This document shows, one piece after another, positions 17,362-32,555 of a stretch of 32,555 nucleotides of DNA (position 1 is its first letter; every line of letters starts with the position of its first letter). This DNA comes from a virus. The stretch spans positions 1 to 32,555 of IMG/VR virus record IMGVR_UViG_3300025087_000231. One strand, 5' to 3'. The notes below the pieces were generated by a model. That model was given only the letters and a program-made list of their open reading frames with translations. It was not told the origin of the DNA and did not search any database. The position numbers and the translations under genes were made by a program.

Positions 17362-17383
17362 TTCAATTATCCTATAGAAAGAA

Positions 17384-17761: not shown

Positions 17762-17774
17762 TAGTTAAATCCCC

Positions 17775-18431: not shown

Positions 18432-18452
18432 TTTAATACCTCCAAATAACTT

Positions 18453-18938: not shown

Positions 18939-18963
18939 CTAGGATTCCTCCGTGTTTTGTTAG

Positions 18964-19863
18964 TTATGGATTAGCGCCAAAAGCCCAACGCCATTCCACT
19001 GTGCTTGTTTCAAAAGAACAATAACCAGCGTATTTTGATACCAAAGTATCAAATTCACCAGACATAAAGAATTGCATTGGTTCCCATTCCCTGAATACAA
19101 GTTTTTCTTTCATCATACTCTCATTGATAATAAACCATGCTGTTGCTGAGGTAAGATAGTTGTCCCATATAATCGCATTGTATCTTCCCTCATGATAGTT
19201 TCTATTGTTTACTGCCGTATCAACCTTACCCATGCTTTTAATGACCTCATAAACCTTATCTTCAAGGTCCATAGGAGCAAGGATAATAGTGGGAATGTTC
19301 ACCATCGGATTGTCTCTGTTGGTTTTTAGCTTCTTCATTGCAATTCTGTTTGTCTCAAGGTTAGCGGCAGAAAAAGCCAATGTGGATGTATTGGATTGAT
19401 TGGCTCCACCATATCTTGATGTATGGGCAGAGTTGCAAAGACTCAGGGTGTCTCCAACAGTAAAAGAACTGTTAAAGGCGTTATTGAAAGCAAATGCGCC
19501 CCTTGTTTCACGAAGATGGCGAAATGCCTGGGCAAGCAGTTTTGTTTTCTCTTTAATAACACCATACAGGTCATTCCTGAGCAATTTCCTGGTAACTTTG
19601 ATACCAAGAGCATATTCAGTTTCAGTTACAGATTTCCTGTAACCTTCCTGAACGGTATCATAAGCAATGCCAGTATCACTAAGAGCAGGAACAACGCCAA
19701 TATCACCTGTTTCCAAATCATATTCAGTGCCTTGTTCTGCACGTTTCATTCTATACAACAGTGGCAACATGGAAGGAATATCCCTGTATTGATTAACAAA
19801 AACCAGTGATAAATCCTTCTGTACCAACCTCGGCCAAGCGGCCTGCGTAATTAAACCAGCCAT
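18964..19863 (-). CDS. major capsid protein (HK97-type fold)
   Basis: A 299-residue protein with the layout of phage major head proteins (gpT/HK97-like): an N-terminal segment rich in Tyr/Pro residues (QYRDIPSMLPLLYRMK), a central acidic stretch (AYDTVQEGYRKSVTETEYALGI), the IKVTRKLLRNDLYGVI segment of the P domain, the FNNAFNSSFTVGDTLSLCNSAHTS loop region, and a C-terminal beta part (MMKEKLVFREW). AGGAGA precedes the ATG. It lies between the head accessory gene and the 161-residue gene, in the correct order after portal and scaffold. It self-assembles into the capsid shell. The expression-related GGTCTAAG element sits 29 bases upstream. Confidence 0.85.
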   Translation of the reverse strand: MAGLITQAAWPRLVQKDLSLVFVNQYRDIPSMLPLLYRMKRAEQGTEYDLETGDIGVVPALSDTGIAYDTVQEGYRKSVTETEYALGIKVTRKLLRNDLYGVIKEKTKLLAQAFRHLRETRGAFAFNNAFNSSFTVGDTLSLCNSAHTSRYGGANQSNTSTLAFSAANLETNRIAMKKLKTNRDNPMVNIPTIILAPMDLEDKVYEVIKSMGKVDTAVNNRNYHEGRYNAIIWDNYLTSATAWFIINESMMKEKLVFREWEPMQFFMSGEFDTLVSKYAGYCSFETSTVEWRWAFGANP

Positions 19864-19891
19864 TTTGTTTTTCTCCTTTTAGAAAATTAGC

Positions 19892-19899
19892 GGTCTAAG
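19892..19899 (-). repeat. GGTCTAAG element upstream of the capsid gene
   Basis: One copy of GGTCTAAG (CTTAGACC on the coding strand), 29 bases upstream of the major capsid start. Two further exact copies lie upstream of the preceding head gene, at 20751-20758 and 20798-20805. Confidence 0.5.
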
Positions 19900-19940
19900 A
19901 TAAATAATCCAATACCAATCAATGAAGCAAATGTATCTGT

Positions 19941-20711
19941 TTAGTCAATCGGATGAAATCCAGCGTTCGTAATTTGAAGAACCGCATAAATTTCAAACTG
20001 AGCTAAACTATTAAGACCAGATAACCCGCCATGCATATCGGGGTCAAGCATCTGGTCGTATCCATTCCTGACAATATGCCGTTCAAGAATAAAACACCGT
20101 CCAGTGCCAGCAGCAGCATCGCTGCCAATCTTTGTCTCATCGGTTGCGGTGGAAATATCCCACTTAACAACCTGATGATACAAAGGAAGAATCTTAACAA
20201 CGGTGCTTGTTGAATCTGGAACTGTTGGGAACGCTGTCGGAACGGTGCAGCTTCCAGCAGCAGAGGTGTCAATAAACTCAAGCTGACCAATTCCAGCGCC
20301 AGAAGCAATATAAATAAAACCAGTATCTATATTATCTTCCAAGCTTCCAATGGTAAGGGTTACGCTAGAATAAGAAGTAACAGCAAGCGTATCAACCAAA
20401 TCATAAGCTACCCTGCACAAAACACCAGTGTCAATAAGCTGGACTTTATGCGAAGGAATCGGAGGAGCGCCAGTATTAAACCAGTCAACAGCGCCAGTAA
20501 CCAGGGCATCCCCGCTTTCGCTAAAATCATGCAGTTCAACTAAAACACCTACAGCATCAGCATTAGATGCATCTGTAGCAATGATTAAAGTGCCATCGTT
20601 CGTTTCCGCAGTAACACCAGGCATTAAAAGAGCGCCTGGGAAAACATCCGCAGAAGCGCCGTAAACTGGCGCTAATGTGGATTGCGTTTGAGCGCTATGA
20701 ATTACTCTCAT
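19941..20711 (-). CDS. head accessory/decoration-type protein
   Basis: The 256-residue product is Ser/Thr/Ala/Val-rich and beta-rich (TLIIATDASNADAVGVLVEL; SYSSVTLTIGSLEDNIDTGF), with few charges, directly upstream of the major capsid gene. GGAG precedes the ATG. Proteins of this size and composition between scaffold and capsid genes are often head decoration, stabilisation or vertex proteins; this is inferred from position. It has two cysteines. Its 5' leader carries two copies of the GGTCTAAG element found before the capsid gene, hinting that the two head genes share an expression signal. Confidence 0.65.
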   Translation of the reverse strand: MRVIHSAQTQSTLAPVYGASADVFPGALLMPGVTAETNDGTLIIATDASNADAVGVLVELHDFSESGDALVTGAVDWFNTGAPPIPSHKVQLIDTGVLCRVAYDLVDTLAVTSYSSVTLTIGSLEDNIDTGFIYIASGAGIGQLEFIDTSAAGSCTVPTAFPTVPDSTSTVVKILPLYHQVVKWDISTATDETKIGSDAAAGTGRCFILERHIVRNGYDQMLDPDMHGGLSGLNSLAQFEIYAVLQITNAGFHPID

Positions 20712-20750
20712 TTTTATCTCCTATAAGATATATTTTGCTGTATCTAGGCT

Positions 20751-20805
20751 GGTCTAAGAAGATGTATGATTGCTGAGTCTACGAAGTAGTCTAGGAAGGT
20801 CTAAG
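20751..20805 (-). repeat. GGTCTAAG/GTCTA repeat cluster in a head-gene leader
   Basis: In the 101-base gap before the head accessory gene, GGTCTAAG occurs at 20751-20758 and 20798-20805. The core GTCTA occurs also at 20777-20781 and 20789-20793. A third GGTCTAAG lies before the major capsid gene. It could be an mRNA processing or protein-binding element, or a promoter-linked operator. No coding frame was seen in the gap. Confidence 0.5.
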
Positions 20806-20812
20806 CTGAAAA

Positions 20813-21244
20813 TCAAAATCCAACTGAAAATCTTGGTTCTTGCCCTAAAGTCTTTGTTATTGATTTCGTCGTACCATTTTTACTAAAACACAATGGACAC
20901 CCGCCAGCTTTTCTAAAATCCTGGTCCAGGTTATAATCCGTTACCGTATCACCCCAATTAGATGTTGCTGTAACCGTTCCGCCAGCTACGGCCCCGCCAG
21001 CGCCATTGCCATCCAAAGAACCGCCAGAATGGTCAACTTTGTTCAAATCAAAAATAAACCCGCATTGTTTACAGGATACTTTACGTTTCAGGCTTCCATT
21101 GCCCTGAGCGTACCCAGTATTGATATTGTTTTCTCTTATCTTACCATTGCCTCGGTTTTCAGCAGGCCAAAGGGATATGAAAATGCCAGCTTCGCCTTTG
21201 TCCCTTAAATAATCTCTGTAATATGCTCCATCAATCCAAAACAT
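20813..21244 (-). CDS. zinc-ribbon protein in the head block
   Basis: The 143-residue product has two CxxC pairs, CKQCGF (58-63) and CPLCFS (about 116-121), which would bind one zinc ion. A Gly-rich linker (GGSLDGNGAGGAVAGGTV) separates them. It starts at a TAATG overlap with the scaffold candidate gene, so it is translated by coupling. The composition is mixed and basic at the C-terminus. A similar CxxC layout occurs in the 87-residue gene at 24807-25070. A structural role at the head, or DNA binding during packaging, is inferred from position; no exact family was recognised. Confidence 0.65.
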   Translation of the reverse strand: MFWIDGAYYRDYLRDKGEAGIFISLWPAENRGNGKIRENNINTGYAQGNGSLKRKVSCKQCGFIFDLNKVDHSGGSLDGNGAGGAVAGGTVTATSNWGDTVTDYNLDQDFRKAGGCPLCFSKNGTTKSITKTLGQEPRFSVGF

Positions 21245-22047
21245 TAACGATTAAACCTCGGTTTTGCTTCTTCCCATTCTTTATCGCCTCTTATTTTAAC
21301 TCCCTTACCATCGCCTGATTCATATTGTTTCAATACTTTTTCATCTTCCTGGTTCTTAATTATTGATTGCATCGTCCTTTTAGCATAATCTTCCATTCCG
21401 TCAAAATTATATTCTGTTTCTTCCGTGGTCTGTTCCACATTGCCAGGATTCTCAAACCTTGGACTGTTAAAAGAATTGTTTTTGTTCATAATCTTCTCTC
21501 CAACTTTGCCTTTAATATAAACAGAAGCCTTTTCTAATGCCTTCGTCAACTTTTCAGGGTCATTCCTGGTTTCATCAGGGTAATCTGCGAGAAATTCATT
21601 AACGTCTTTCTCGTATCTTTCCATCACAGGATTTTTCTTGTAAAAATCCCTATATACCCTGTCTGATTTCTTCTCAAAATCCATCTTTTTAATCTGTTCT
21701 TCTAATTTCTTCTTTTCTTCCTGGGTTGTTCTTAGACTTTCCTCAATGGGTTTAACGGCTTCTGATATTTGCCCTTGCGCAATCTGAGCGTTTGCCATAA
21801 TCTGCTGCCTGGTTAATCCTGTAGCTTCTTCCCACGTTTTCCATTGTTCTTCTGTTACGGTATTCTGCGTTTTAGAGGTTTGTGGGACATTGAAATTCTT
21901 AAGGATATCCCGTTCTGCTTCGGCTTTAATCTTTGCCTCATTAACTTCCCTGGATTGAACCTTAAGCTGTTCAAGTTCTGATTTTAACTGTTCCAGTAAT
22001 TCTTTATTTTCTTGTTCTTCCTGGGTTGGTTCTTTTTCATCGCTCAT
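21244..22047 (-). CDS. scaffold protein candidate (acidic coiled coil)
   Basis: The 267-residue product is strongly acidic with very high Glu/Lys content and a long coiled-coil-prone N-terminus (residues about 1-50: EEQENKELLEQLKSELEQLK), then a helical, charged middle (KKKLEEQIKKMDFEKKS) and an Asn-rich linker (NKNNSFNS). Size, composition and position between portal and capsid genes are those of phage scaffolding proteins, which direct shell assembly and are lost at maturation. Both ends overlap neighbours by TAATG. No protease domain is visible in it or nearby, so processing, if any, is unclear. Confidence 0.7.
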   Translation of the reverse strand: MSDEKEPTQEEQENKELLEQLKSELEQLKVQSREVNEAKIKAEAERDILKNFNVPQTSKTQNTVTEEQWKTWEEATGLTRQQIMANAQIAQGQISEAVKPIEESLRTTQEEKKKLEEQIKKMDFEKKSDRVYRDFYKKNPVMERYEKDVNEFLADYPDETRNDPEKLTKALEKASVYIKGKVGEKIMNKNNSFNSPRFENPGNVEQTTEETEYNFDGMEDYAKRTMQSIIKNQEDEKVLKQYESGDGKGVKIRGDKEWEEAKPRFNR

Positions 22048-22436
22048 TAGAATACTCCTTGTTCTTTTGCTTTCTCAGTTTCGGTTATCTTTTCTTCAAG
22101 CTGTTTAATGCTCTCTCGGCACGTTGCAAGAACATCGTCTGACTTATCAACATACGAAATAAGACCCTCACAGAGCTTCACAACACCAGACATCTGAGCA
22201 AGATTGACATACGAAGCAGCAATATCACTTTGAGATGTTTTTCTTAAATCAAGCTCTTGAAGTATGCCTTTTTTATTCAAATCAATATATTCATTCAAAA
22301 TGCCCTTAAATGATTTCCAGTGGGATGTTTCCTTAAATTCTCCAAATTCAGATATTTTTCTTGCAAATTCCCTTGTTTTTGAAAGAGCGTCTACATAAGA
22401 GTCTAACAGACTTTGAGTTGGTTTTTCAATAGACAT
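22047..22436 (-). CDS. 129-residue helical hypothetical protein after the portal
   Basis: A mostly helical protein starting MSIEKPTQSLLDSYVDALSK, with a C-terminal charged helix (ESIKQLEEKITETEKAKEQG) and two cysteines. It starts in the portal gene's 3' end region (TAATATG context) and its own stop overlaps the scaffold start by TAATG, so it belongs to the head-assembly operon. It may be a small head-morphogenesis or portal-associated protein. No family was recognised. Confidence 0.62.
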   Translation of the reverse strand: MSIEKPTQSLLDSYVDALSKTREFARKISEFGEFKETSHWKSFKGILNEYIDLNKKGILQELDLRKTSQSDIAASYVNLAQMSGVVKLCEGLISYVDKSDDVLATCRESIKQLEEKITETEKAKEQGVF

Positions 22437-22437
22437 A

Positions 22438-24393
22438 TTATCTCATCTCCGTTGATTGAGTTAGAGTGGGGGGTGCTGATGCTCCCATAGGAACAGAAAC
22501 GCCCCCAGGGATTGCCACAGGAAGTCCAGGAGTTGTCTCAGCAGGTGGTTGTTGAGTCTCTACAGTCAATTTATTGGTATCATCCTCACCTGATGCTAAA
22601 ACCATCCTGTTCCACAATTCAGTGGCTATATTGTTTTGTGGACCTCCCATCTTAAGATACATGGCATATAGCGTCATAAGTCCCTGTATTCTTTGCATCG
22701 CAAATTCTGGCGACATTGTAACAGACCGCTTCCTTTCGGTCCAAATAATACCATTTATTGATAGTTTGCGCACATCTTCCTCATCGTTTGAATACTGAAT
22801 TGTAAGGGCTTGCACAAGCCTGGCTAGGTCTGGAAATGACTTTGAGAACTCTGACATATAATCATCTATTCTTAAATTTGCCTGGTTTATTAGAGCAATG
22901 GTTTTACCCATCGGCGAACGAGGGTCTGACGGCGATTCCTTGCCAGATAAAGCCTGCGTAGGACCAATGGCAAGCTCAAGATAACGAACGGCAAGGTTTT
23001 CCTCATCTGCGGAGTTTCCAGGTTGGTCAAAATTTTGAAGAATCATCTGCCTGGCTATATTGTCAAATGGCGGTTTCCCCCAAATAACCATGCCTGGACG
23101 TATAACATTCTCAGACCTAGAAGGGTCAATATGCTCTTTCATGGTTTCATTCATGAATACCACAGGAGCAGCAACCAGGGAACGGATATTGTTCCTATGG
23201 CGGTGAATAGTATCAATCAGGTTAAACAGGTCCTCCCCATCAGCAGCCATTGAAGCGCCTATAAACCTGTTATCTCTTTTAACAAACCTGAAAGAGACAA
23301 CAAAATCAATGTTTCTCATGATGGGATAACTTTCAACGCTTAAAACGATAAAGTTATTCACGTCAAACACAACAAGATATTTTTCTGGTATGCCATCATC
23401 ATCTAAATCCGCTTTATAAACAACATCGGCTAATTCGTATGGCGTCTTTTCTGTCTGCGTAACAGATAGACCATCAATAAAATTCCTGGATGCTGACCAT
23501 TCGTCTGTTTTCATGCCATGCTGCCTGGCTATACATTCGTACGCTTTCCTTTCGTAATAGAGGCCTTCCTTAGAACCTAGCAAGATATCTTCTTGTGATT
23601 TTGAATAACTGCGTCCATATAACTTCATGTCTGATATCGTGTGAACCCATGTGGGCCAAAAGATAAATTCAGCTAGAGGAATAACTTGAAATTTCAAACC
23701 GTTATTCTTTAAGAAATCGTATTTATACTCAACCCTGTATTCAAATTCTTCGTTGACTATAAATTTATCAAGCAATGCGTCATATTCCTCTTGAGACAAC
23801 CCCGCATCTTCTGGCAATGAGTAATCTTTGATAAAATCATTGGCTGTCTTATATGCTCTGTAATCGCTCGCCTTCTCTATCTCTCTTTCCCAATACGCTG
23901 AGATTAAAAAGACTCCATCCCTGAAACATGGCATAGTGCCGTCTTTTACCATGTCTAAACCATCTGATTCCAGGCTAAACTTCCTGTTAAGAACTTCCTG
24001 CGCGTCATCAATGGCTTTCTTATCTGCCTTGCCGCTAGCGATGAAAATATCAGGACTTGCGTATAATGACTTATTGAAAGTGGACCTGAAAGCACGGGCC
24101 ATGCCTGTAGCATACCTGGTAGTTATATTAGACGCTCCCTCATAGGGAAAGTTAGTCTTTGGCACAACACCTTCAAGGATTTCATTTAAACTGACCAGTC
24201 TGCGCCGAAGGGCTGCTGTCTCTGTCTTATACTGCGTGTACTTGCTTTTTATATCCCTTTCAATCGCTTGCAGTTTGTTATCAGACAGTTTAAGTTTCTT
24301 ATTGCGTCTTACTTCGGGGATGCTGTAGATTTCTTTATCAATCTTTGATTTTACATCTTGGGGGGGTTTTAGTAGACCATATTCAACTTGCAA
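22438..24393 (-). CDS. portal protein
   Basis: A 651-residue protein with features of P22/T4-like phage portals: a basic N-terminus, the FPYEGASNITTRYATGMAR segment (about residues 82-100), typical of the portal clip region (PWEGASN... in relatives), and a long beta/helical body with a domain near residues 330-380 (ADVVYKADLDDDGIPEKYL). The C-terminus is Pro/Gly/Thr-rich. The start is TTG, supported by GGAG seven bases upstream. It lies just after the DUF6496-type gene and before the scaffold genes, the standard portal position. It forms the ring through which DNA is packaged. Confidence 0.85.
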   Translation of the reverse strand: MQVEYGLLKPPQDVKSKIDKEIYSIPEVRRNKKLKLSDNKLQAIERDIKSKYTQYKTETAALRRRLVSLNEILEGVVPKTNFPYEGASNITTRYATGMARAFRSTFNKSLYASPDIFIASGKADKKAIDDAQEVLNRKFSLESDGLDMVKDGTMPCFRDGVFLISAYWEREIEKASDYRAYKTANDFIKDYSLPEDAGLSQEEYDALLDKFIVNEEFEYRVEYKYDFLKNNGLKFQVIPLAEFIFWPTWVHTISDMKLYGRSYSKSQEDILLGSKEGLYYERKAYECIARQHGMKTDEWSASRNFIDGLSVTQTEKTPYELADVVYKADLDDDGIPEKYLVVFDVNNFIVLSVESYPIMRNIDFVVSFRFVKRDNRFIGASMAADGEDLFNLIDTIHRHRNNIRSLVAAPVVFMNETMKEHIDPSRSENVIRPGMVIWGKPPFDNIARQMILQNFDQPGNSADEENLAVRYLELAIGPTQALSGKESPSDPRSPMGKTIALINQANLRIDDYMSEFSKSFPDLARLVQALTIQYSNDEEDVRKLSINGIIWTERKRSVTMSPEFAMQRIQGLMTLYAMYLKMGGPQNNIATELWNRMVLASGEDDTNKLTVETQQPPAETTPGLPVAIPGGVSVPMGASAPPTLTQSTEMR

Positions 24394-24406
24394 ATTTTAT
24401 CTCCAA

Positions 24407-24772
24407 CTAACTCTTTGGTTTTGGTATGCGAGCGCCAGCTTTGCGAGCCTCTGATAAACCAATGGCAATGGCTTGTTTTCTTTTGGATACCTTCTTCTTG
24501 CTCCTGCCCGAATAAAGAGTTCCACGCTTAAACTCACCCATTACGGTTTTAATCTTGCTGCGGGGACCTAACTTTGCCCTCTTGGAGGCTCCTGCTCCTG
24601 GAACATCTGAATGGCTCATTGCCCTCTGAATGACGCCAGATTCACCAACCTGGATAGTATTGCCACCCTTAGCAGAACTCATCATCTTTGTCCTAGTGGA
24701 GCCCATATCCATATCTTCCATCTTAGACTTTTTTATCATCGCTTTCACTTTATTAGTTGTCATATTTCTCAT
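24407..24772 (-). CDS. DUF6496-type small basic protein
   Basis: The 121-residue product is very basic and ends with the signature of the DUF6496 family (recalled as KVMxEFKxGxLxSGRSxKKVTxRKQAIAIALSEA): here TVMGEFKRGTLYSGRSKKKV and SKRKQAIAIGLSEARKAG. The family is common in phages, often beside head or packaging genes, but has no known function. AAGGAGAG precedes the ATG. It sits directly before the portal gene. A role in DNA binding or head assembly is inferred from charge and position. Confidence 0.75.
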   Translation of the reverse strand: MRNMTTNKVKAMIKKSKMEDMDMGSTRTKMMSSAKGGNTIQVGESGVIQRAMSHSDVPGAGASKRAKLGPRSKIKTVMGEFKRGTLYSGRSKKKVSKRKQAIAIGLSEARKAGARIPKPKS

Positions 24773-24786
24773 TTTCTCTCCTTGAA

Positions 24787-24818
24787 AATCTTAGAATCTT
24801 AGAATCTTAGAATCTTAG
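24787..24818 (+). repeat. AATCTTAG tandem repeat, four exact copies
   Basis: Four perfect head-to-tail copies of AATCTTAG (CTAAGATT on the coding strand). The array covers the last codons and stop of the zinc-ribbon gene and the gap before the DUF6496-type gene. Because the unit is 8 bases, gain or loss of a copy would move the downstream ribosome site relative to the stop and alter the last residues. Confidence 0.85.
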
Positions 24819-25070
24819 TTTATCCCTAATCTTTCTAATTGACCTCTCACGAGATGAGGCAACCTCATCTTCTCTCATGGGTCTTAACTCTCCCATGCGC
24901 TTCTTATCGCATCTAGGGCAATGCCTGGAACGCTCCTGGTAAAGCGTATGACACTCAGAACACTGATAAACCCGCAATCGTGGGTAATTCTTGAAATCTG
25001 AAACACCCATCTCAGATTCAAATCTCTCTGTTCTAAGGTCTAGTTCCCTGCGTCTCTGTAAGCTAGGCAT
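24807..25070 (-). CDS. 87-residue zinc-ribbon protein
   Basis: This product has two CxxC motifs, CSECHT and CPRCDKK, spaced about as in a zinc ribbon, flanked by highly basic segments (MPSLQRRRELDLRTERF at the start and RSIRKIRDKLRF at the end). It would bind one zinc ion and nucleic acid. It lies between the terminase/GroES part and the portal gene. It is one of two zinc-ribbon genes in the late block (the other is at 20813-21244). No clear ribosome site was found. Function is inferred only. Confidence 0.65.
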   Translation of the reverse strand: MPSLQRRRELDLRTERFESEMGVSDFKNYPRLRVYQCSECHTLYQERSRHCPRCDKKRMGELRPMREDEVASSRERSIRKIRDKLRF

Positions 25071-25123
25071 AAAATGTTGCTACAACCAATGAAAAGGGTC
25101 ATTAGTTGGGTATGGAGTGAACT

Positions 25124-25330
25124 CTACTCAGCTACGCCCTTAGTCTGAGGCAGCGACTTAACATCTTCGTTAGGATTTGGTGTATTCTTAAACTTCGCTT
25201 CTGCCTTGCCTTCCTTACTGCCTGTTTGCGCCCAATCACTGTTATCGTGAGGAACATTTCCTTTTGCCACTTTTTTCTCCTTCTCCTGACCATAATCAGG
25301 ATTCACATTAGAATAAAAACGATTAGCCAT
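25124..25330 (-). CDS. 68-residue hydrophilic hypothetical protein
   Basis: The product is short, Lys/Asn/Asp-rich and probably disordered (NRFYSNVNPDYGQEKEKKVA, later KNTPNPNEDVKSLPQTKG). GGGAGG lies before the ATG, which supports a real gene. It sits between the 91-residue gene and the zinc-ribbon gene. No family or motif was recognised. Confidence 0.6.
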   Translation of the reverse strand: MANRFYSNVNPDYGQEKEKKVAKGNVPHDNSDWAQTGSKEGKAEAKFKNTPNPNEDVKSLPQTKGVAE

Positions 25331-25331
25331 G

Positions 25332-25607
25332 TTACCTCCCTATCATCTTTTTAATTTGATTATAAGACTTGTGTATCCCATTCATCAAACCAGGAACTAT
25401 TACGCTCTTATTTTCAGATTTCTTGTACCATAAATACAGATGGGTTTTCATACTGTCAAGAATTAGAGTCATTTCAAACGGATTATGCTTCTTTAACGGT
25501 ATGCCTATCCAGGCAATGCCATTTGGCTCATCCAGATACAACTGCGCTTGAGTTGGTACTGGCAGTTTCGGCTGTTCCTGTGCTGGCGCACTCCCCATCT
25601 CCACCAT
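25332..25607 (-). CDS. 91-residue hypothetical protein overlapping the GroES-like gene
   Basis: A Pro-rich N-terminus (PAQEQPKLPVPTQAQ) leads into a compact mixed alpha/beta part (IAWIGIPLKKHNPFEMTLIL, then a basic C-terminus). GGAGG six bases before the ATG supports the start. It overlaps the GroES-like gene by 80 bases in another frame, a long overlap for this region, so the two 3' and 5' coding parts constrain each other. No family was recognised. Confidence 0.6.
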   Translation of the reverse strand: MVEMGSAPAQEQPKLPVPTQAQLYLDEPNGIAWIGIPLKKHNPFEMTLILDSMKTHLYLWYKKSENKSVIVPGLMNGIHKSYNQIKKMIGR

Positions 25608-25911
25608 TGTCGTCCTCCGTCATTATAATATCTTCGTCCTTCATAATCCTGCAAAAACCCCATCCCTCAACATTAAACGCCTCTGTCATTGCTCCATATT
25701 TGTCAAACCATACCTTTTGGCCTATATGGAAATCATCCACGTCTTGCCCTATAAGGACGACAACGCCAGAACGGGCAGAATCACGATTGTTTTCACTGCT
25801 CTTGGATGTTTCAATAACCTCAATGCCAGCTTTTGTTTTGACAGCATCCTCAATTTTGACTAACACCCACCCGCTTAACAGCCTTAGTTTTTCTATGCTG
25901 ATTGATTGCAT
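25528..25911 (-). CDS. GroES-like co-chaperonin (Cpn10)
   Basis: The 127-residue product fits the Cpn10/GroES fold over residues about 6-100: KLRLLSGWVLVKIEDAV (as KLRPLHDRVIVKR in GroES), a 15-residue mobile-loop-like stretch (TSKSSENNRDSARS), the GVVVLIGQDV strand, KVWFDKYGAMTEAF (as VIFNDGYGVK) and IMKDEDIIMTE (as IMSESDILA). A Ser/Thr-rich tail follows. The start was set at the ATG eight bases after GGAGG; an ATG 5 codons earlier is part of that site. Phage co-chaperonins such as T4 gp31 work with host GroEL to fold the capsid protein; that role is inferred. Confidence 0.75.
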   Translation of the reverse strand: MQSISIEKLRLLSGWVLVKIEDAVKTKAGIEVIETSKSSENNRDSARSGVVVLIGQDVDDFHIGQKVWFDKYGAMTEAFNVEGWGFCRIMKDEDIIMTEDDNGGDGECASTGTAETASTNSSAVVSG

Positions 25912-25967
25912 GTCTATGACCTCCATTATTCTAACATACGTTTTCTCTGTATTTCAACCATCTTCCT

Positions 25968-27563
25968 TCATTCTTCCCTCACTCCATAAGAAGGGGAAGA
26001 TGAAATGGTTATGCCATGAGAACTCTTGAACGAATCACGAAATCTAGGTGTTACGGGGATATCGCCAATCTCCTTTGAAATGTGCCAACAAATTGCAGCT
26101 GCCATAATCCTGTCTGAATAGCATCCAGATTGAGCAACCATCTTATTGGACGCATTATACACATAAGTCCTTATTTCTGACAAGAGGGCCGCTGAACGGA
26201 TTGAAAACCCGAAATCACGGATAGCCTCGCCAGCAAAAGAGCCTATAATCAAATTCTTTGTGTTTGCCGTTGTCTGGAACCCGTATAACTGGTCATCGCT
26301 TCGGTTTTGGCTCACCTTACGCTGATATAGGTTGTTATATCCCAAATCCCGCAGGCGATTAACCGTTACCAACCCCATGTTATTGACTTCTGGTGCAAGC
26401 AGGGCATGGTTGTAGTAAGAACCGAGGCGAGCTAGAACATCTGCAAACCTATCAGGCTCTATGTGGCCATGCCACTCCGCTACCTGGGCCTTGGTTGATA
26501 AGTCTATCACAATGGCAGCGCTGTAGGCCCCCCCATCCACACCCTCAGCCACATCAGCCCCTATGCAATAAACGTGGCCATTAACGGGCATATCCCAAAT
26601 CGCTAGATTGCCCTTGCTATCAGGAGAAACATTGCTAAATCCTCCATGTTCCTCTAGGTAGCCAATCAGTTTAGGTTCTGAGCAATACTGCTCATGTTTG
26701 ATTATCGCTTGCCAGTCAAAAACCATCCTGCCAGAACTTAAAAAAGCCTCCTCTGGATAGGCAGGGTATTCCTGGGAGAACAACTGAGGGTTGCTCATCT
26801 CAGTGATTTTGGACCTACGCCACGCTATCTGACCGTGGCTGAGTCCGAACGTAGATATCAACCTATGCTCCTCCTCACCTAAGACGTCTAATCTAGCATC
26901 CTTTACGCAATACTCAGGATTGGCCCACCAGGGAACGAATAAAGGCGTATAACGGGATTGTTTAGCTAGCGACCGCACCCATAATTCATGCAAATGATTG
27001 GTACCGTTGGCTGTTGACTCAATGTCGCCATAAGCATCCTCCGTAATGGCCTCCTCAATACCAGTGCCAACGCTAACATCCTCATAATGGGCGTACTCTG
27101 ATAGGTGGTAGTCCGTGATATCATCCCCTCGCCCGAACCGCTTTGACCCCGCAGCTCCTATCCATAACCTGCTGCCAGTGTCCTTAAACTCTATCCAGTC
27201 CTTGCGGTCCTCTACCGCCAATGGGATGATGGACGATTTTATGATGGGGATAGCCCTATCTAATAGGAGACGCTGCGCTGCGTCCTTGGTGTGGCTGACA
27301 ATAACCGCCCGCCTTCCTGGCAGGAATGCGCATCTCCAGATTGCTCTGGCGATTATGAGAGTGGAGAACCCTAGCTTGCGGGCTTTAAGGATGATTTTGA
27401 ATCGGGAATTGATGGACGCATACTGCCTCTGAGCAGGATTGAGCTTGAACGGGACATAGCGTCCCCGTTTATTAAAAATGCTGAGGCATAACTCTATGTA
27501 ATAGTACGGGTTTTTTTGCGCTTTGGAGAATATCTCAGATGCCTTGGCATCTATGTTATCCAT
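25968..27563 (-). CDS. terminase large subunit (packaging ATPase/nuclease)
   Basis: A 531-residue protein with the terminase motifs in order: an Arg-rich Walker A variant KARKLGFST (60-68), Walker B DYHLSEYAHYE (152-162), the coupling motif ESTANG (183-188) and an RNase H-like nuclease triad D338 (ADVAEG), E393 (PEVNN) and D485 (YSDRIMA). It cuts and pumps DNA into the head through the portal. GAGAGG precedes the ATG. The gene order small subunit, 61-residue gene, SpoVG-like, large subunit, GroES-like is unusual in inserting a SpoVG homologue. By eye this stretch is clearly more GC-rich than the tail genes. Confidence 0.9.
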   Translation of the reverse strand: MDNIDAKASEIFSKAQKNPYYYIELCLSIFNKRGRYVPFKLNPAQRQYASINSRFKIILKARKLGFSTLIIARAIWRCAFLPGRRAVIVSHTKDAAQRLLLDRAIPIIKSSIIPLAVEDRKDWIEFKDTGSRLWIGAAGSKRFGRGDDITDYHLSEYAHYEDVSVGTGIEEAITEDAYGDIESTANGTNHLHELWVRSLAKQSRYTPLFVPWWANPEYCVKDARLDVLGEEEHRLISTFGLSHGQIAWRRSKITEMSNPQLFSQEYPAYPEEAFLSSGRMVFDWQAIIKHEQYCSEPKLIGYLEEHGGFSNVSPDSKGNLAIWDMPVNGHVYCIGADVAEGVDGGAYSAAIVIDLSTKAQVAEWHGHIEPDRFADVLARLGSYYNHALLAPEVNNMGLVTVNRLRDLGYNNLYQRKVSQNRSDDQLYGFQTTANTKNLIIGSFAGEAIRDFGFSIRSAALLSEIRTYVYNASNKMVAQSGCYSDRIMAAAICWHISKEIGDIPVTPRFRDSFKSSHGITISSSPSYGVREE

Positions 27564-27587
27564 TTTTGAACCTCTCGGTTGCTGCTA

Positions 27588-27920
27588 CTATAGAATGGCG
27601 TCGCTAACAGTCTCAGGAGGATGGTCCCCACCTGCCAGTACGCTACGGGTAGCGGAGGGCTCCTCTATGGTCAACTCGTCAATGCGCCGCAGTAGGACGG
27701 CCTCCAGGTAGGAGCGAAACGCCACCGTTACGGGGTGTACCATATCCGCATACTCTCCGCTACGCCCTTGGCGGGATGGCATCAGCACCATCCTGCGGGA
27801 ATCAGGACGCCTGATAATGCGGATATTGCGTATAATCAGTTGGTCATCCAGCACCAGGGTGGCGTAGGCCAGTACCCTGGGGTCCTTGCTCATACTGATG
27901 GTTACCCTCGTTACACGCAT
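27588..27920 (-). CDS. SpoVG-like protein
   Basis: The 110-residue product matches the SpoVG family over its first 85 residues: VTRVTISMSKDPRVLAYATL and VLDDQLIIRNIRII, then MVLMPSRQG and GEYADMVHPVTVAFRSYLEA (SpoVG: MPSKRTPDGEFRDIAHPI). SpoVG proteins bind DNA or RNA and regulate genes or translation; phage versions are occasionally seen. GGGGGAGG precedes the ATG. It lies between the two terminase genes, so a regulatory role in late expression, or a link to packaging, is a reasonable guess. The last 25 residues are extra. Confidence 0.8.
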   Translation of the reverse strand: MRVTRVTISMSKDPRVLAYATLVLDDQLIIRNIRIIRRPDSRRMVLMPSRQGRSGEYADMVHPVTVAFRSYLEAVLLRRIDELTIEEPSATRSVLAGGDHPPETVSDAIL

Positions 27921-27924
27921 CCTC

Positions 27925-28110
27925 TCACCTCCCCCTCATATCCCATAACCATACAACATTGTCTTGGCGCCGAGACAATTGACCTCCAAAAATCGCTCCA
28001 GGATTGCGTAGGACACGATATCTAGTACCTACCCATGCCTGGATATCCATCAAAATGGTTAAATTGTTGATTTTATTGATTATTCGCTGTGCAACTGCCA
28101 GGGTTCTCAC
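27925..28110 (-). CDS. 61-residue hypothetical protein between the terminase genes
   Basis: This basic protein starts at a GTGA overlap with the terminase small-subunit stop and ends shortly before the SpoVG-like gene's ribosome site. It contains VGTRYRVLRNPGAIFGGQLS and ends VVWLWDMRGR. The tight spacing on both sides supports it as a real small gene. The function is unknown. Confidence 0.5.
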   Translation of the reverse strand: MRTLAVAQRIINKINNLTILMDIQAWVGTRYRVLRNPGAIFGGQLSRRQDNVVWLWDMRGR

Positions 28111-28556
28111 TCTCCCACATCACCAGACCCGTCTAACCCCCTGCGCTGAGCGGCCTGCACTAGCTGTATCATCACGTTTTGCGTGCTGGCATGCTCTCCC
28201 TCTCCGTCCCTGGATAGGGCTCCCCATATTCGGAGGGCCATATTAATGTATCCCTCCCTCGTACGCCAATCGGGATTGCCCTTGTCATCGTTTGCCTCCG
28301 CGCCATCCCTGACCTTGTTCGCCCAAAAATCCCGTCCAGCTCCTATCTTTTTGAACTCTCGCTCAAACAACTGGCGTACAGTTGTATTCCGCATCAGTCT
28401 GGACCCCTGCTCCGACGCACGCCCAGGAGCATAACCAGCGTCTATTGCCGACTGGCGTATGGTGTTACCCTCAATGACACTCGTAGCAAACTTTTTGTAT
28501 TTCGCCCTCAGCTGCGGAGTGGGTTCTCTATCACTCATACCGTAATTGTACACCAT
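28107..28556 (-). CDS. terminase small subunit
   Basis: A 149-residue protein with the N-terminal helix-turn-helix arrangement of terminase small subunits: KFATSVIEGNTIRQSAIDAG, then the YAPGRASEQGSRLMRNTTV segment (NxxxVxxG-like) seen in many TerS proteins, followed by a helical region for oligomerisation. It would recognise the packaging site and help load the large subunit. The first ATG is weakly placed relative to AGAGG; an ATG six codons in (MSDREP) is possible. It is the first late gene, directly beside the divergent control region. Confidence 0.75.
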   Translation of the reverse strand: MVYNYGMSDREPTPQLRAKYKKFATSVIEGNTIRQSAIDAGYAPGRASEQGSRLMRNTTVRQLFEREFKKIGAGRDFWANKVRDGAEANDDKGNPDWRTREGYINMALRIWGALSRDGEGEHASTQNVMIQLVQAAQRRGLDGSGDVGE

Positions 28557-28592
28557 ATCCTCTAAGTGTTTCCAATAATTCTTGCTTTTTTA

Positions 28593-28687
28593 CGGTTTTA
28601 TTGTCATACAATCGTTACATATCCGTCATATACCGCCCGAAAAACAATAAACCGTAGTGGCGGTTGCGCTGTCATACAATCGTTACA
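28593..28687. promoter_or_regulatory. divergent control region with 27-bp direct repeats
   Basis: Two direct repeats, 28593-28619 and 28661-28687, share CGGTT, four variable bases, then an identical 18-base stretch beginning TGTCATACAATCG. Their period is 68 bases. An imperfect inverted pair built on TACGGTTT...ATTG lies around them (28591-28603 and 28645-28656). The early promoter follows to the right; to the left no clear sigma70 promoter for the late block was found, so these repeats may be binding sites for an activator or repressor of late genes. The TGTCATAC core recurs in the palindrome at 29588-29611. Confidence 0.65.
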
Positions 28688-28707
28688 CGGATTTTACACG
28701 TCTGCTA

Positions 28708-28736
28708 TTGATTTTTTGGCGGCCATCCTATATAAT
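28708..28736 (+). promoter_or_regulatory. early promoter P1 (TTGATT-17-TATAAT)
   Basis: A strong sigma70-type promoter: -35 TTGATT (28708-28713), 17-base spacer, -10 TATAAT (28731-28736), with transcription expected from about 28743. It drives the rightward early genes starting with the ParB-like gene, whose leader opens with a stem-loop. Confidence 0.8.
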
Positions 28737-28744
28737 ATATGTAT

Positions 28745-28790
28745 GGGAGCGCAAAATCCAAAATCCAAAAATCAACTGTATCACGCTCCC
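28745..28790 (+). promoter_or_regulatory. 5'-terminal leader stem-loop of early transcript 1
   Basis: GGGAGCG (28745-28751) and CGCTCCC (28784-28790) form a 7-bp stem around a 32-base loop, beginning within a few bases of the P1 start. The first gene's AAAAGGAG site follows at once. The stem could protect the 5' end or modulate translation. TGCGCTCCCA, the reverse complement of the 5' arm context, occurs in the leader at 31548-31557. Confidence 0.55.
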
Positions 28791-28809
28791 TCAAAAGGAG
28801 AATAGAAAA

Positions 28810-29136
28810 ATGAAAACATCAGCAGTACTGCCCTGGGCACATAGAGCGCCCCACAGGGTCACGGATAGCGTAAAACTAGCCAGCATGATAACAGTATTAT
28901 CGTCTGGGGGCGATCTCCCCCCTGTCCTATGGGACGGCAATCAGGCGTACGAGGGATCGCACCGTTTGGCGGCGTGGGAAGCATTGGGTATGTATCCCAC
29001 TTATATATTGGTTGGCAATGCAGATTTAGCTGACGCTGCAAAAATACTGGGGGGGGAGGCCGAAAATATAGACTGGATGGACGAGCACAATTTATCGGTG
29101 CTGTGGGACGTAATATGCGGAGATTCGGAAAAATGA
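28810..29136 (+). CDS. ParB-like small protein
   Basis: The 108-residue product contains the ParB/Srx-like core WDGNQAYEGSHRLAAWEALG (residues 51-70), where the GSHRLAA motif follows a conserved DGNHRL-type pattern; ParB-like domains of this kind include nucleotide-binding CTPases and nucleases. The start was set by AAAAGGAG before the ATG; a longer frame upstream is only the leader. It is the first gene of the rightward early operon from P1. A DNA-binding, partition-like or nuclease role cannot be separated from the sequence. Confidence 0.65.
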   Translation: MKTSAVLPWAHRAPHRVTDSVKLASMITVLSSGGDLPPVLWDGNQAYEGSHRLAAWEALGMYPTYILVGNADLADAAKILGGEAENIDWMDEHNLSVLWDVICGDSEK

Positions 29137-29151
29137 AAAAGGAGAAACAAA

Positions 29152-29292
29152 ATGAACACTAAAATCGTGAAATATGGAAATAAAGAATATAGGGTACGAT
29201 TGAAATTTGGCAATGTATGGCGTTGCGACTCAAAAACGTATAAAACTCTATCAAGATTACTGGCCGATTGGACACCACCAAAAGGAGCGTAA
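29152..29292 (+). CDS. 46-residue early protein
   Basis: A short basic protein (MNTKIVKYGNKEYRVRLKFG... ending DWTPPKGA) with AAAAAGGAG before its ATG and one base between its stop and the next start. The ribosome site and tight spacing support a real gene missed by length cut-offs. No family was recognised; phage early small proteins often act on host targets. Confidence 0.6.
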   Translation: MNTKIVKYGNKEYRVRLKFGNVWRCDSKTYKTLSRLLADWTPPKGA

Positions 29293-29293
29293 A

Positions 29294-29539
29294 ATGGACA
29301 TGATACAGATTAGTTACCTTATCGCCACGGAACTGGCGCGTAGCAGGGCTGGCCTGCGCTGGCAACCCCTGCGAGCAGGCATCATCACCCAGGGCGCGCC
29401 ACCAGGCAGGTGTGAATTGGTATTGGGTATCCTGTGCCGACTAGGGCACGTCCGCAGGGTCTATGACGTGATTTGGGCCGAGAATAGCCTTTATGACGCC
29501 CTAGCAAACTGGGAAAAGAAGAATATACCGCAGTTTTGA
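29294..29539 (+). CDS. 81-residue early protein
   Basis: The product, starting MDMIQISYLIATELARSRAG, is basic and Arg-rich with Trp/Leu-rich segments (RLGHVRRVYDVIWAENSLYD). GGAG six bases before the ATG fixes the start; the longer frame upstream is out of frame with the previous gene. It is the last of three early genes from P1 before a hairpin at 29553-29587. The function is unknown. Confidence 0.6.
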   Translation: MDMIQISYLIATELARSRAGLRWQPLRAGIITQGAPPGRCELVLGILCRLGHVRRVYDVIWAENSLYDALANWEKKNIPQF

Positions 29540-29552
29540 GTTAATCATCATA

Positions 29553-29587
29553 AAATACCCTTAGTTACTTGCTAACCAGGGGTATTT
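29553..29587 (+). terminator. weak intrinsic-terminator-like hairpin
   Basis: AAATACCC (29553-29560) pairs with GGGTATTT (29580-29587), with TTAG/CTAA as possible inner pairs. The U-tract after it is poor. It lies right after the 81-residue gene, so it may end or attenuate the P1 transcript; rated weak because of the missing U-run. Confidence 0.4.
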
Positions 29588-29611
29588 ACTTGTCATACCG
29601 GTGTGACAAGT
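29588..29611 (+). promoter_or_regulatory. 24-bp near-perfect palindrome (operator candidate)
   Basis: ACTTGTCA and TGACAAGT, 8-base arms, flank a centre T-ACCGGT-G that is itself palindromic except for one base pair. This symmetry, 30 bases before the metallophosphoesterase start, suits a dimeric repressor or activator. No T-run follows, so it is not a terminator. Its half-site TGTCATAC matches the repeats at 28593-28687. Confidence 0.6.
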
Positions 29612-29641
29612 GAAAATCCAACAAATAGAAAGGGGTAAAAA

Positions 29642-30526
29642 ATGGAAGCATTGCGCATTGACATATGTCTAAAGGGAACAGAGGAATTTAGAATTTACAG
29701 TACAGGGGATTTCCAGGATGGCGACTTTGCTTCCAATACTGAGGCTATCAAAAAGTGCCTTGACCGATGCCGTAACGATCCCAATGGCTACCTGATGATA
29801 ATGGGTGATATCCAAAACTTTATGAGGCCCAAAGTAAGGGGCAGGATAGAGTCTATCTTGGCTGATGACCCCAATTCAAGGGATGAGTTTGATCAAAACA
29901 TCTTAAAAACCGTGGATGACTGTATTAAAAAATTCAACCTAGATGATCCAAATCTTAAAAAGATTGGCTTTTTAGAGGGACACCATTACGCAAATTCCAG
30001 GCTTGGGTTGTTTACTACAACTCAATATATGTGCAGTAAAGTAAAAGCTCAATATCTAGGGTTTTTTTGTTGGGTGCAAATCATCGTAGAACAGAAATTT
30101 CCCGGTGGCAACCGAAGCGGTTATGTCTTAAATGTCGGTGCGACTCATGGATGCGGCGGGGGAAAGTCGTCAATGACAACAGCTATCCGCAAGATGGAGG
30201 AAACTATCAAAAACTGGGATGTTAATATCTTGCTTAGAGGACACTCCAACGATCTGGAGGGTGGATTTACAAACCCTATCATGAGAGCAACAACGCGAAC
30301 CAATAGCCCCTTACATATCTATCCAAGCCCACGGTTGATTGTGAACTGCGGAGGTTATACCCAGGGATATCAGATCGGTAAGACTCATTATTCTGAGTTG
30401 GGACAGATGTCTCCACAGCAGATAGGGTATGTTATAGTCCATGTTAAAATAGAGAAACATCCTCACTCTAAAGAAGGAAGGAAGTCAGCTTACCTTACAT
30501 ATTGGCCAGAACCAATACCATTGTAA
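29642..30526 (+). CDS. calcineurin-like metallophosphoesterase (early copy)
   Basis: This 294-residue protein has the same motif order as the late copy at 74-952: GDFQDG (22-27), GDIQNF (55-60), GHHY (113-116), ATHG (167-170) and RGHSND (199-204). The third motif ends in Tyr where the late copy has Asp, so metal binding may differ. AAGGGG precedes the ATG, and the operator-like palindrome lies just upstream. It probably acts early in infection on nucleic acid or nucleotides; the substrate is not known. Shared positions such as NPNSFALGLGDYSDF and DPNGYLMIMGDIQNF show it arose by duplication within this phage line. Confidence 0.78.
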   Translation: MEALRIDICLKGTEEFRIYSTGDFQDGDFASNTEAIKKCLDRCRNDPNGYLMIMGDIQNFMRPKVRGRIESILADDPNSRDEFDQNILKTVDDCIKKFNLDDPNLKKIGFLEGHHYANSRLGLFTTTQYMCSKVKAQYLGFFCWVQIIVEQKFPGGNRSGYVLNVGATHGCGGGKSSMTTAIRKMEETIKNWDVNILLRGHSNDLEGGFTNPIMRATTRTNSPLHIYPSPRLIVNCGGYTQGYQIGKTHYSELGQMSPQQIGYVIVHVKIEKHPHSKEGRKSAYLTYWPEPIPL

Positions 30527-30532
30527 ATTACA

Positions 30533-31042
30533 TTAAGAAATAGCGCTTATAAATTTATCAATAAAATGGTTTTTTATTAAATATCTTGAGGTTTTATTCT
30601 TAATCCTAATTACTCTTTTTACCATGCCAGTATTTATTATCTCATTATCACGTCTTTTATCTTTGTCTACCCTTTCATCGTGCCATTTTCCATCTAATTC
30701 TAATACTATTTTAGTAGCAGGAAACCAAAAATCTACAATGGCATACCAGGAATCCAATTTGATTATTCTTTGAAATTGGAAATTTATATTTTTCTCTTTA
30801 AGAACTCTTAATAAATCCCTTTCCGCCCAGGCGGGGTTTAATCGCATTTTTCTTTGAAATTCACGCACCCTTGTCGGGAATTTATTTTTTTTCTTTTTTA
30901 TTTTTCGGGAATTTTTCTTGCGGGTAAAAAAATGTGTCTTTCTTTTTTCGAGTTCTAAATCTCTAAGATACCGAATTCTTGCATTATATTCACCATCAAT
31001 AATATTTGTTGATCTATAATTGCGATTAAAGACATTAAGCAT
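30533..31042 (-). CDS. DUF559/VSR-like endonuclease
   Basis: The 169-residue product matches DUF559/VSR-type PD-(D/E)XK nucleases in its second half: NPAWAERDLLRVLKEKNI, FQFQRIIKLDSWYAIVDFWF and TKIVLELDGKWHDERVDKD, then RRDNEIINTG and VKRVIRIKN. The N-terminal 60 residues are extremely Lys/Arg-rich. The start ATG at 31042 is preceded by a GGGGGA run inside a hairpin; a TTG 15 codons upstream is possible. It is the only leftward gene in the early region, converges with the metallophosphoesterase gene (6-base gap), is AT-rich, and may be a homing-type insertion or an anti-defence enzyme. Confidence 0.7.
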   Translation of the reverse strand: MLNVFNRNYRSTNIIDGEYNARIRYLRDLELEKRKTHFFTRKKNSRKIKKKKNKFPTRVREFQRKMRLNPAWAERDLLRVLKEKNINFQFQRIIKLDSWYAIVDFWFPATKIVLELDGKWHDERVDKDKRRDNEIINTGMVKRVIRIKNKTSRYLIKNHFIDKFISAIS

Positions 31043-31053
31043 AAGACTACTTT

Positions 31054-31309
31054 TCCCCCTGGCATATCTTACAGGGGGAGGGCGCAAGGTCCATTATCCT
31101 CTAAATTGAAGGTAGAGCCTGTAGCCCCTGGCTATCTACAGGACGTGCCTAACTCTCCGACACGAAGAGAAAAAATATGCCATTTGAGGGAGGGACAAGA
31201 GTAGTCAACTTGTTGGTGCATACCCCATCTACCTTTTAGAGTTGCTATCGTTTCGCCATTTCTATTGCCCCACGAAACCTTCACTGGCATTATCAATGCA
31301 AGGGCAGTG
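31054..31309 (-). ncRNA. candidate structured leader/non-coding RNA upstream of the DUF559 gene
   Basis: From promoter P3 leftwards, about 250 bases carry a series of hairpins and no convincing gene. In transcript order: CACTG/GCATT stem (31282-31309), GTTTCG/CGAAAC (31250-31278), ACAAG/CTTGT (31195-31213), CCTGTAG/CTACAGG (31118-31142) and TCCCCCTG/CAGGGGGA (31054-31079), the last near the endonuclease's likely ribosome site. Stem density is higher than in neighbouring sequence. It could be a regulatory leader or a phage small RNA; no known RNA family was recognised. A 52-codon frame inside it lacks a ribosome site and was not called. Confidence 0.5.
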
Positions 31310-31312
31310 TTA

Positions 31313-31341
31313 ATTATGTAAATATATTTCCGCAATGTCAA
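31313..31341 (-). promoter_or_regulatory. leftward promoter P3 (TTGACA-17-CATAAT)
   Basis: On the minus strand: -35 TTGACA (31341-31336), 17-base spacer, -10 CATAAT (31318-31313), a near-consensus sigma70 promoter. Transcription would begin about 31308 and run through the hairpin-rich leader into the DUF559 gene. Confidence 0.75.
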
Positions 31342-31352
31342 GGTGTATTTTA

Positions 31353-31428
31353 ACCGACGACAAGACGACAAATTGACGGAAAAACCCTAGATATCATACC
31401 CCCCCATCGTCGGTAAAAACGATGTTTT
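31353..31428 (+). other. inverted repeats upstream of P2
   Basis: ACCGACGA (31353-31360) pairs with TCGTCGGT (31407-31414), while CATCGT (31405-31410) pairs with ACGATG (31419-31424), followed by TTTT. The two pairings exclude each other, as in attenuators, but the region lies upstream of P2 and the terminator form is weak. It may insulate P2 from upstream rightward transcripts, or hold an operator. Nothing else was seen in this stretch. Confidence 0.4.
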
Positions 31429-31455
31429 GAGAGGGAAAAATAAATTTATAAAACA

Positions 31456-31484
31456 TTGACTTTTTTTCAATAGTCATATATACT
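31456..31484 (+). promoter_or_regulatory. early promoter P2 (TTGACT-17-TATACT)
   Basis: A strong sigma70-type promoter: -35 TTGACT (31456-31461), 17-base spacer, -10 TATACT (31479-31484). Transcription is expected from about 31491. It drives the zinc-finger-like and SSB-like genes through a structured 125-base leader. Confidence 0.8.
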
Positions 31485-31490
31485 TTATTC

Positions 31491-31578
31491 ATGAGCATGG
31501 GACAACAAAACAATTTCCCCCTGATAACACCCCTGGCGGATTCCATCTGCGCTCCCACGCTCATAATCCCCAGGGGTG
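31491..31578 (+). promoter_or_regulatory. structured leader with interlocking stems (pseudoknot/switch candidate)
   Basis: Stem A pairs ATGAGCATGGG (31491-31501) with CCCACGCTCAT (31554-31564), 10 of 11 pairs. Stem B pairs CACCCCTGG (31528-31536) with CCAGGGGTG (31570-31578), 9 of 9. The order is A5', B5', A3', B3', so the two stems form an H-type pseudoknot or exclude each other. Stem B is followed by AATTTTTT, as in an intrinsic terminator, so a read-through/termination switch is possible. The 5' arm of A starts at the predicted transcript start. The ligand or partner is unknown. Confidence 0.6.
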
Positions 31579-31615
31579 AATTTTTTGCAAATAAAATAAG
31601 AGGAGAAAAAATAAA

Positions 31616-31966
31616 ATGGATAACCCAAGCGAGATAGCATATCACGATTGTCCCTTGTGTAATGACCATATATTCGACAAAGAACACACTGAAAAAATAC
31701 AAATGGGACAGCAAAATGTGTTTCATACGGCTCACTCTAGGTGTGTTGATTCTCTTTTCTCAAACGAAAAACATAAAGAAAAACATGAGGCACTTGAAAA
31801 AGCGCATTGGAATTTAATAAATGAAATGAGGTCCTTCAGAGAGATTTTGTTTGAATCCAGGGCCGCTGGATTGCTCAAGACTGGAGAGTATGAGCAGGTT
31901 ACCGTTGCCCTGGACAATTTGGAGGACGTTATAAACGAAATGGGAATGGGAGGAAAAACAAAATGA
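31616..31966 (+). CDS. zinc-finger-like early protein
   Basis: The 116-residue product has an N-terminal CPLC motif and a later HxxHxRC (FHTAHSRC), a likely single zinc site in its first 45 residues, then a helical, charged remainder (FSNEKHKEKHEALEKAHW, then a Leu-rich amphipathic helix). AGAGGAG lies before the ATG. It is the first gene behind P2 and its structured leader, and it overlaps the next gene by ATGA. No family was recognised; regulation or protein binding is a guess. Confidence 0.62.
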   Translation: MDNPSEIAYHDCPLCNDHIFDKEHTEKIQMGQQNVFHTAHSRCVDSLFSNEKHKEKHEALEKAHWNLINEMRSFREILFESRAAGLLKTGEYEQVTVALDNLEDVINEMGMGGKTK

Positions 31967-32382
31967 GCGACTTCACAGACAGAGCTGAGAAACTGGGATA
32001 TAAACAAGAGCAGCAAACAGCCTACGAAAAACTAGAGTGGTTGGACCTGACAAACAAAACGGGGAATTGGGTCTTTCTTGAGGTCCTGGGAGATAAAGAA
32101 ATTGAGTTTACACCGAAAAGCGGAAGGTTGCAGGGAAAATTGGTAAAAAAGATTGTGTTTGAAGCTATTGTAAAAAGCAACAATATGGGTATAGAAGAAG
32201 GGACGAAAATGCAAATAGGCCCTCCTGGATTGCTGCTCTATCAATTAAATCATCGTAAAGGGTTATTTGGGTATCCTTTCAGCATTGGCGTAGAATACTC
32301 TGGAAAAGATGCAGAAGGCAGACACCAGACAAATGTCGTTGATAAAAACAGCTCTATCAATAATGAGGAGGTCCCATTTTGA
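31963..32382 (+). CDS. SSB-like protein with acidic PF tail
   Basis: The 139-residue product is beta-rich (NWVFLEVLGDKEIEFTPKSG, then LVKKIVFEAIVKSN, then LLLYQLNHRKG), compatible with an OB fold, and ends in NNEEVPF. An acidic tail ending in Pro-Phe is the signature of single-stranded DNA-binding protein tips (for example DDDIPF), which recruit replication and repair partners. It starts at an ATGA overlap with GGGAGG upstream. The core does not closely match any SSB recalled, so it is best treated as a probable ssDNA-binding protein. Confidence 0.55.
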   Translation: MSDFTDRAEKLGYKQEQQTAYEKLEWLDLTNKTGNWVFLEVLGDKEIEFTPKSGRLQGKLVKKIVFEAIVKSNNMGIEEGTKMQIGPPGLLLYQLNHRKGLFGYPFSIGVEYSGKDAEGRHQTNVVDKNSSINNEEVPF

Positions 32383-32555
32383 TAATAACGAAAGACTGGC
32401 TTAACAAGCATAACGCCTGCAAGGACGAAGTAATCCGCTTCTGCGAGGTTTACCCCTGCGGGGAAGCCGCACTCAATGACGTTATCCAGCGCCTCGAGCG
32501 GGCTGATTGGCTGCTGTGGCTCCTGGGGCACACTGGCACTCCCCATAGGGAGATG
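32379..32555 (+). CDS. partial early gene at the right edge
   Basis: An open frame begins with TTG overlapping the stop of the SSB-like gene, with GAGGAGG seven bases upstream, a strong ribosome site. It runs 59 codons to the window edge without a stop (MIITKDWLNKHNACKDEVIR... ending HTGTPHREM). The Trp/Leu/Asp-Cys pattern (WLxxxxACxxE, FCEVYPCG, ADWLLWLL) resembles a helical domain often attached to phage repeat proteins, but no function can be given from this fragment. Confidence 0.7.
   Translation, partial: MIITKDWLNKHNACKDEVIRFCEVYPCGEAALNDVIQRLERADWLLWLLGHTGTPHREM

Follow-up and report, generated by a model that had tools for sequence, protein, structure and literature searches.

We found an early leader at 31491-31615 of an uncultured phage (IMGVR_UViG_3300025087_000231; the 32,555-nt stretch analyzed is hereafter the window), in which two stems, A and B, interleave at the predicted 5' end of the transcript. 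Our leading, though tentative, reading is that it serves as a promoter-proximal attenuator of the early operon, built on a 5'-terminal stem. If B terminates transcription and A modulates it, the logic of the attenuator would be that of a pseudoknot rather than of a shared-arm switch, in a phage for which no close relatives were found.

Two interleaved stems at a predicted transcription start

The leader lies downstream of a predicted sigma70-type promoter on the plus strand (31456-31484), which comprises TTGACT (31456-31461), a 17-nt spacer and TATACT (31479-31484), and which matches 10 of the 12 positions of the sigma70 consensus. By this match the predicted +1 falls at about 31491, the base with which stem A begins and where transcription probably starts. 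Promoter matches overall are barely commoner than in shuffles; only two plus-strand 10/12 matches occur in 20001-32555, each immediately upstream of one of the two plus-strand operons, and TTGA[CT]TTTTT is found at these two promoter sites only within the window. Upstream of the early promoter, at 31348-31419, a 13-nt inverted repeat (TTTTAACCGACGA / TCGTCGGTAAAAA) accompanies GACGAC-type repeats, a possible operator or origin-like sequence.

By pairing and stacking computation, the 5' arm of stem A (31491-31502) begins at the predicted +1 and pairs with 31553-31564 on the same plus strand in 11 pairs and one A-C mismatch (A31497/C31558). Stem B has its 5' arm at 31528-31542 and its 3' arm at 31565-31578, also on the plus strand, and consists of 14 bp with a 1-nt bulge: a 9-bp core (31528-31536/31570-31578) is followed, past the bulged C31537, by the pairing of GGATT (31538-31542) with AATCC (31565-31569). 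Because B extends through GGATT/AATCC, the 3' arms of the two stems abut (31564/31565, with zero bases between them), and the stems interleave with no base in common. Their stacking energies are -21.1 kcal/mol for A and -27.4 kcal/mol for B. Stem B is followed by a terminator-like tail of an AA spacer and a T6 tract (AATTTTTT, 31579-31586, plus strand). A preliminary description, made from the sequence alone, had placed A, B, the T-run and a third pairing correctly; its stem A is to be amended by the mismatch and an extra loop-side pair (31502/31553), and its stem B, right in the core, is longer than had been noted. On the minus strand U-G stands in place of the A-C mismatch and A is better paired, a mild caution against the view that selection has acted on A in the plus-strand RNA. 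Stretching from the end of B to the first early gene are about 37 nt of A/U-rich, largely unpaired RNA (31579-31615), which carry the Shine-Dalgarno AGGAG of that gene (31601-31605, plus strand).

Strength against chance and folding of the leader

Taking as strength the stacking of the weaker partner, with a threshold of at least 21.1 kcal/mol, dinucleotide shuffling of the 100-nt locus, repeated 5000 times, never produced an interleaved pair as strong as A and B, nor did any of 5000 locus shuffles give an A-like stem when B was held fixed. The pair also ranks best among 2598 overlapping 100-nt segments of both strands. Since one of 12 whole-window shuffles, each of one strand, equals this strength (reaching 21.2), the window-wide significance of strength alone is marginal. 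Hairpin B is GC-rich and stable (-26.6 to -27.7 kcal/mol, z -6.0), and among the hairpins that precede the 184 T-runs of length 5 or more on the two strands of the window (118 plus-strand and 66 minus-strand) it ranks first at -26.6, with the next at -17.5. To this extent the earlier proposal is supported, in that B is terminator-shaped.

The third pairing, C, joins CCCCTG (31518-31523, plus strand) to 31571-31576 at -8.4 kcal/mol and had been put forward as a competitor of B; despite sharing an arm with B, it has a probability of 0.00 in every computed ensemble and shows no measurable competition there. When growing transcripts were folded at equilibrium, with a program that cannot represent pseudoknots, A was present from 3' ends at 31561-31564 up to 31573, at 97-98% by 31567-31573, and B prevails from 31576 onward. 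Non-crossing refolding of A into B faces a barrier of 18.5 kcal/mol and is too slow for transcription; such a barrier would require B to nucleate over the A loop, as a pseudoknot. Having no base in common, the two stems can coexist as an H-type pseudoknot, whose loops, at about 25 and 10 nt, are long enough to span the stems, judging the geometry by hand. Adding an assumed pseudoknot cost of 10-14 kcal/mol to the stacks (-48.6) yields a rough sum no higher than that of the best nested fold (-31.9), with an uncertainty exceeding the difference from B alone. An H-type pseudoknot of A and B is thus allowed and may form, and the earlier view of a pseudoknot-capable, interleaved pair at the 5' terminus is supported. 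The accompanying idea of a riboswitch finds nothing pointing to a ligand, and the Rfam search of the leader returned no family at the gathering score, with only a weak hit to NsiR1 (14.1 bits, E 6.4, cut-off 39).

Terminal stems at other promoters

The window has 18 distinct promoter matches that reach 10/12 or better, and for each we computed the best 5'-terminal stem, counting those whose 5' arm begins no more than a few bases from the predicted +1. The top three stems lie at 31491 (+), 28743 (+) and 31306 (-), with background fractions of 0.0014, 0.0071 and 0.029, and these are the three intergenic matches ahead of genes; the other fifteen matches lie in or against coding sequence and have stems that look like background. 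Three matches picked blindly would rank this way with a probability of 1 in 816, a figure to be read with the test having been devised after the stems were seen by eye and the intergenic assignment being our own. The stems at 28743 and 31306 are weaker than A, and the latter, absent from the lowest-energy fold, is the weaker case. By eye, neither of these two leaders has a recognizable equivalent of B. A stem at the 5' terminus thus appears to be a design common to the phage transcripts, with B peculiar to the 31491 leader, and the occurrence of such stems at all intergenic promoters suggests a general handling of mRNA 5' ends by the phage.

The second early promoter and leader (28708-28790, plus strand, from the promoter match and the stem computation; +1 at about 28743) has a simple 7-bp stem formed by GGGAGCG (28745-28751) and CGCTCCC (28784-28790). 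An alignment of the two early leaders is not significant overall. The window contains exactly three copies of the motif ATGGGA-N3-CAAAA, all on the plus strand. Each early leader has one at its start (28743 and 31497), and the third (31703) lies within early gene 1, where it encodes MG-x-QN from the ATG. The second early leader has an AUG at its predicted +1 (28743) that opens a 20-codon frame, MGAQNPKSKNQLYHAPSKGE, ending just before the gene at 28810.

A direct repeat, TGTCATACAATCGTTACA (28602-28619 and 28670-28687), is operator-like and sits between the late and early operons, and a related palindrome, ACTTGTCA...TGACAAGT, is found at about 29588-29611. Just upstream of the gene at 29642, the overlapping inverted repeats AAATACCC...GGGTATTT and GGGTATTTACTTGTCA...TGACAAGTGAAAATCC (29553-29619) have a common arm and possibly form an either/or structure.

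Genes of the early region and their relatives

The first early gene (31616-31966, plus strand) encodes 116 aa with a CxxC and further H/C residues that are zinc-finger-like by eye; it has no family match, and its structure model is of mixed confidence with a helical C-terminal half. The second (31963-32382, plus strand) encodes 139 aa ending in NNEEVPF, which resembles an SSB tail by eye. The preliminary label 'SSB-like' stands on this acidic EEVPF tail as its sole basis; family and structure searches gave no confirmation, the gene having no family match and its structure model (pLDDT 33) no usable fold. Between the two plus-strand operons is a minus-strand gene (30533-31087) for a DUF559/methyl-directed restriction-enzyme-like endonuclease, with a 5' leader of at least 220 nt from a strong 11/12 promoter match; a structured RNA in that leader was considered and dropped (z 0.29). 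Metallophosphoesterase-like proteins that are alike by eye are encoded at opposite ends of the window (74-952, minus strand, and 29642-30526, plus strand).

No relative was found among viral contigs for early gene 1, early gene 2, the metallophosphoesterase-like gene or the DUF559 gene, among genome contigs for early gene 2, or among phage records for early genes 1 and 2, the DUF559 gene and the leader DNA. Likewise, an exact pattern for stem A found nothing, and no homologous leader was found in the viral contigs, genome contigs or phage records. The terminase has relatives at about 30% identity and the capsid at 20-26%, placing the phage apparently far from all relatives found. The terminase also led to another viral contig, all 12902 bases of which are the same as 16763-29664 of the window; ending at 29664, it does not include the leader. 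The arms of A were also considered as a DNA operator, a reading that was dropped, with no further copies beyond chance.

Attenuation and its alternatives

The shape of stem B is terminator-like, and it has a T-run downstream in the plus direction only. The U6 tract stands behind the AA spacer, and a 3-bp GCG/CGC pairing closes the 22-nt loop of B only in part; neither the spacer nor the loop is ideal in an intrinsic terminator, and a simple terminator scan with loops of 3-8 did not list B. The exact 9-bp B stem with its T-run, the latter being part of the search pattern, recurs in terminator-like form in ten unrelated bacterial genomes, and the matches to the pattern are unrelated terminators and one phage repeat. 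Regarding the earlier proposal of a terminator that A blocks, the blocking is possible, and A is no classical either/or antiterminator because the two stems share no bases; nor did we find at the leader a stable, mutually exclusive antiterminator sharing the arm of B, the arm-sharing pairing C having the probability of 0.00 given above.

In the reading that we judge most likely, B is a promoter-proximal terminator, active at least in part, and A both influences how much it is used and closes off the 5' end of the mRNA. Transcription would begin at about 31491, letting stem A seal the extreme 5' end of the mRNA, and stem B with its U-tract would be made about 14 nt after A is complete. Since the 5' arm of B sits in the loop of A, B could form either by crossing A in an H-type pseudoknot or only once A has opened. 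How the two stems balance could then set the share of polymerases that stop at about 31586 against those that continue into the early genes, and the surviving mRNA would retain a folded, protected 5' end. Both the modulation of B by A and the protection of the mRNA are proposed parts of this scheme; its switch logic is unproven, as A and B are not mutually exclusive. An improbable, more specific form of the attenuator would have the terminator hairpin form only across the 5'-terminal stem. Termination would then depend on whether the first bases of the transcript, some 90 nt earlier, are sealed or open, and this device would be used alongside 5'-terminal stems on the early transcripts.

The most serious alternative, which we regard as rather unlikely, is that a 5'-terminal pseudoknot acts at the level of the mRNA and not on termination, either shielding the 5' end from decay or offering a site for autorepression of translation by an early protein such as the SSB-like product of gene 2, as with T4 gp32. 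The recurrence of 5'-terminal stems at three promoters and the rough energy sum, comparable to or below the nested optimum of -31.9, fit this explanation, as does the succession of an interleaved 5' fold and about 37 nt of A/U-rich ribosome-site RNA, which resembles the T4 gene 32 operator (PMC535899). It leaves the U-tract of B unexplained, however, and the SSB identity of gene 2 is putative, the gene is the second and not the first, and the stems are far longer than the ~28-nt pseudoknot of T4. The two stems could also be unrelated, A being a simple 5' stem or a product of chance and B an ordinary terminator for read-through from the upstream plus-strand operon (28743-30526). The plus strand from 30526 to the leader has no strong terminator-like hairpin, and the single whole-window shuffle of equal strength also speaks for such a coincidence; nevertheless, B lies downstream of the early promoter and would stop the transcripts of that promoter too, A begins exactly at the predicted +1, and the locus shuffles with B fixed never regenerated A. 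We rate this account improbable as well.

We give far less weight to two further schemes. The folded leader could be a put-like, cis-acting antitermination RNA that binds its own polymerase so that later terminators are ignored; like HK022 putL, it would present two stems within about 90 nt at the start of an early transcript from a phage early promoter, and the 5' end at the second early promoter is structured too. Yet put stems lie side by side instead of interleaving, the leader is without an Rfam match, B has a U-tract and the second leader offers only a simple 7-bp stem; we consider this proposal very doubtful. Equally doubtful is a ribosome-controlled attenuation, in which a leaderless leader peptide of 48 codons (31491-31637) would be translated from the AUG at the predicted +1, and its translation would open A and B. 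Its open frame, MSMGQQNNFPLITP..., does pass through both stems, and the second early leader has the comparable +1 AUG and short frame described above, but stem A buries the AUG, frames of 48 codons are not unusual in C-rich DNA, and neither codon usage nor homology lends it support.

Comparison with known systems

As a tentative attenuator, the leader shares with trp/pyr-type, phage and plasmid attenuators the succession of a promoter, a short leader, a GC-rich hairpin with a U-tract and then the genes. It differs from the trp/pyr-type in having no stable alternative stem that shares the terminator arm; instead, the upstream stem interleaves with the terminator-like one. The ompA and papA leaders likewise have a stem at the extreme 5' end, as predicted here for three transcripts, but the known ones are nested hairpins. 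Such 5'-terminal stems reportedly stabilize mRNAs in E. coli, as is attributed to Emory et al. 1992 and to Bouvet and Belasco 1992 (both cited in PMC3997798), and stem A, going by the predicted +1 only, starts within a few nt of it, as in stabilizing 5' stem-loops.

In the T4 gene 32 mRNA, a 5'-terminal pseudoknot and a less structured, A/U-rich ribosome-site region are bound by the phage SSB in autoregulation (PMC535899). The likeness lies in the 5'-terminal interleaved fold, the A/U-rich ribosome-site region and an adjoining endonuclease gene in both phages, whereas the stems of the present leader are far larger, take the form of a U-tract terminator and precede a putative SSB-like gene that is second. 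HK022 putL is a two-stem-loop RNA of about 70 nt, located just downstream of an early promoter, which suppresses pausing and termination (PMC9378689). The putL/putR RNAs, likened here by layout alone, also have a pair of stems in the first part of early transcripts, at the start or close to it, but the put stems are adjacent to each other, whereas here they interleave and B carries a U-tract.
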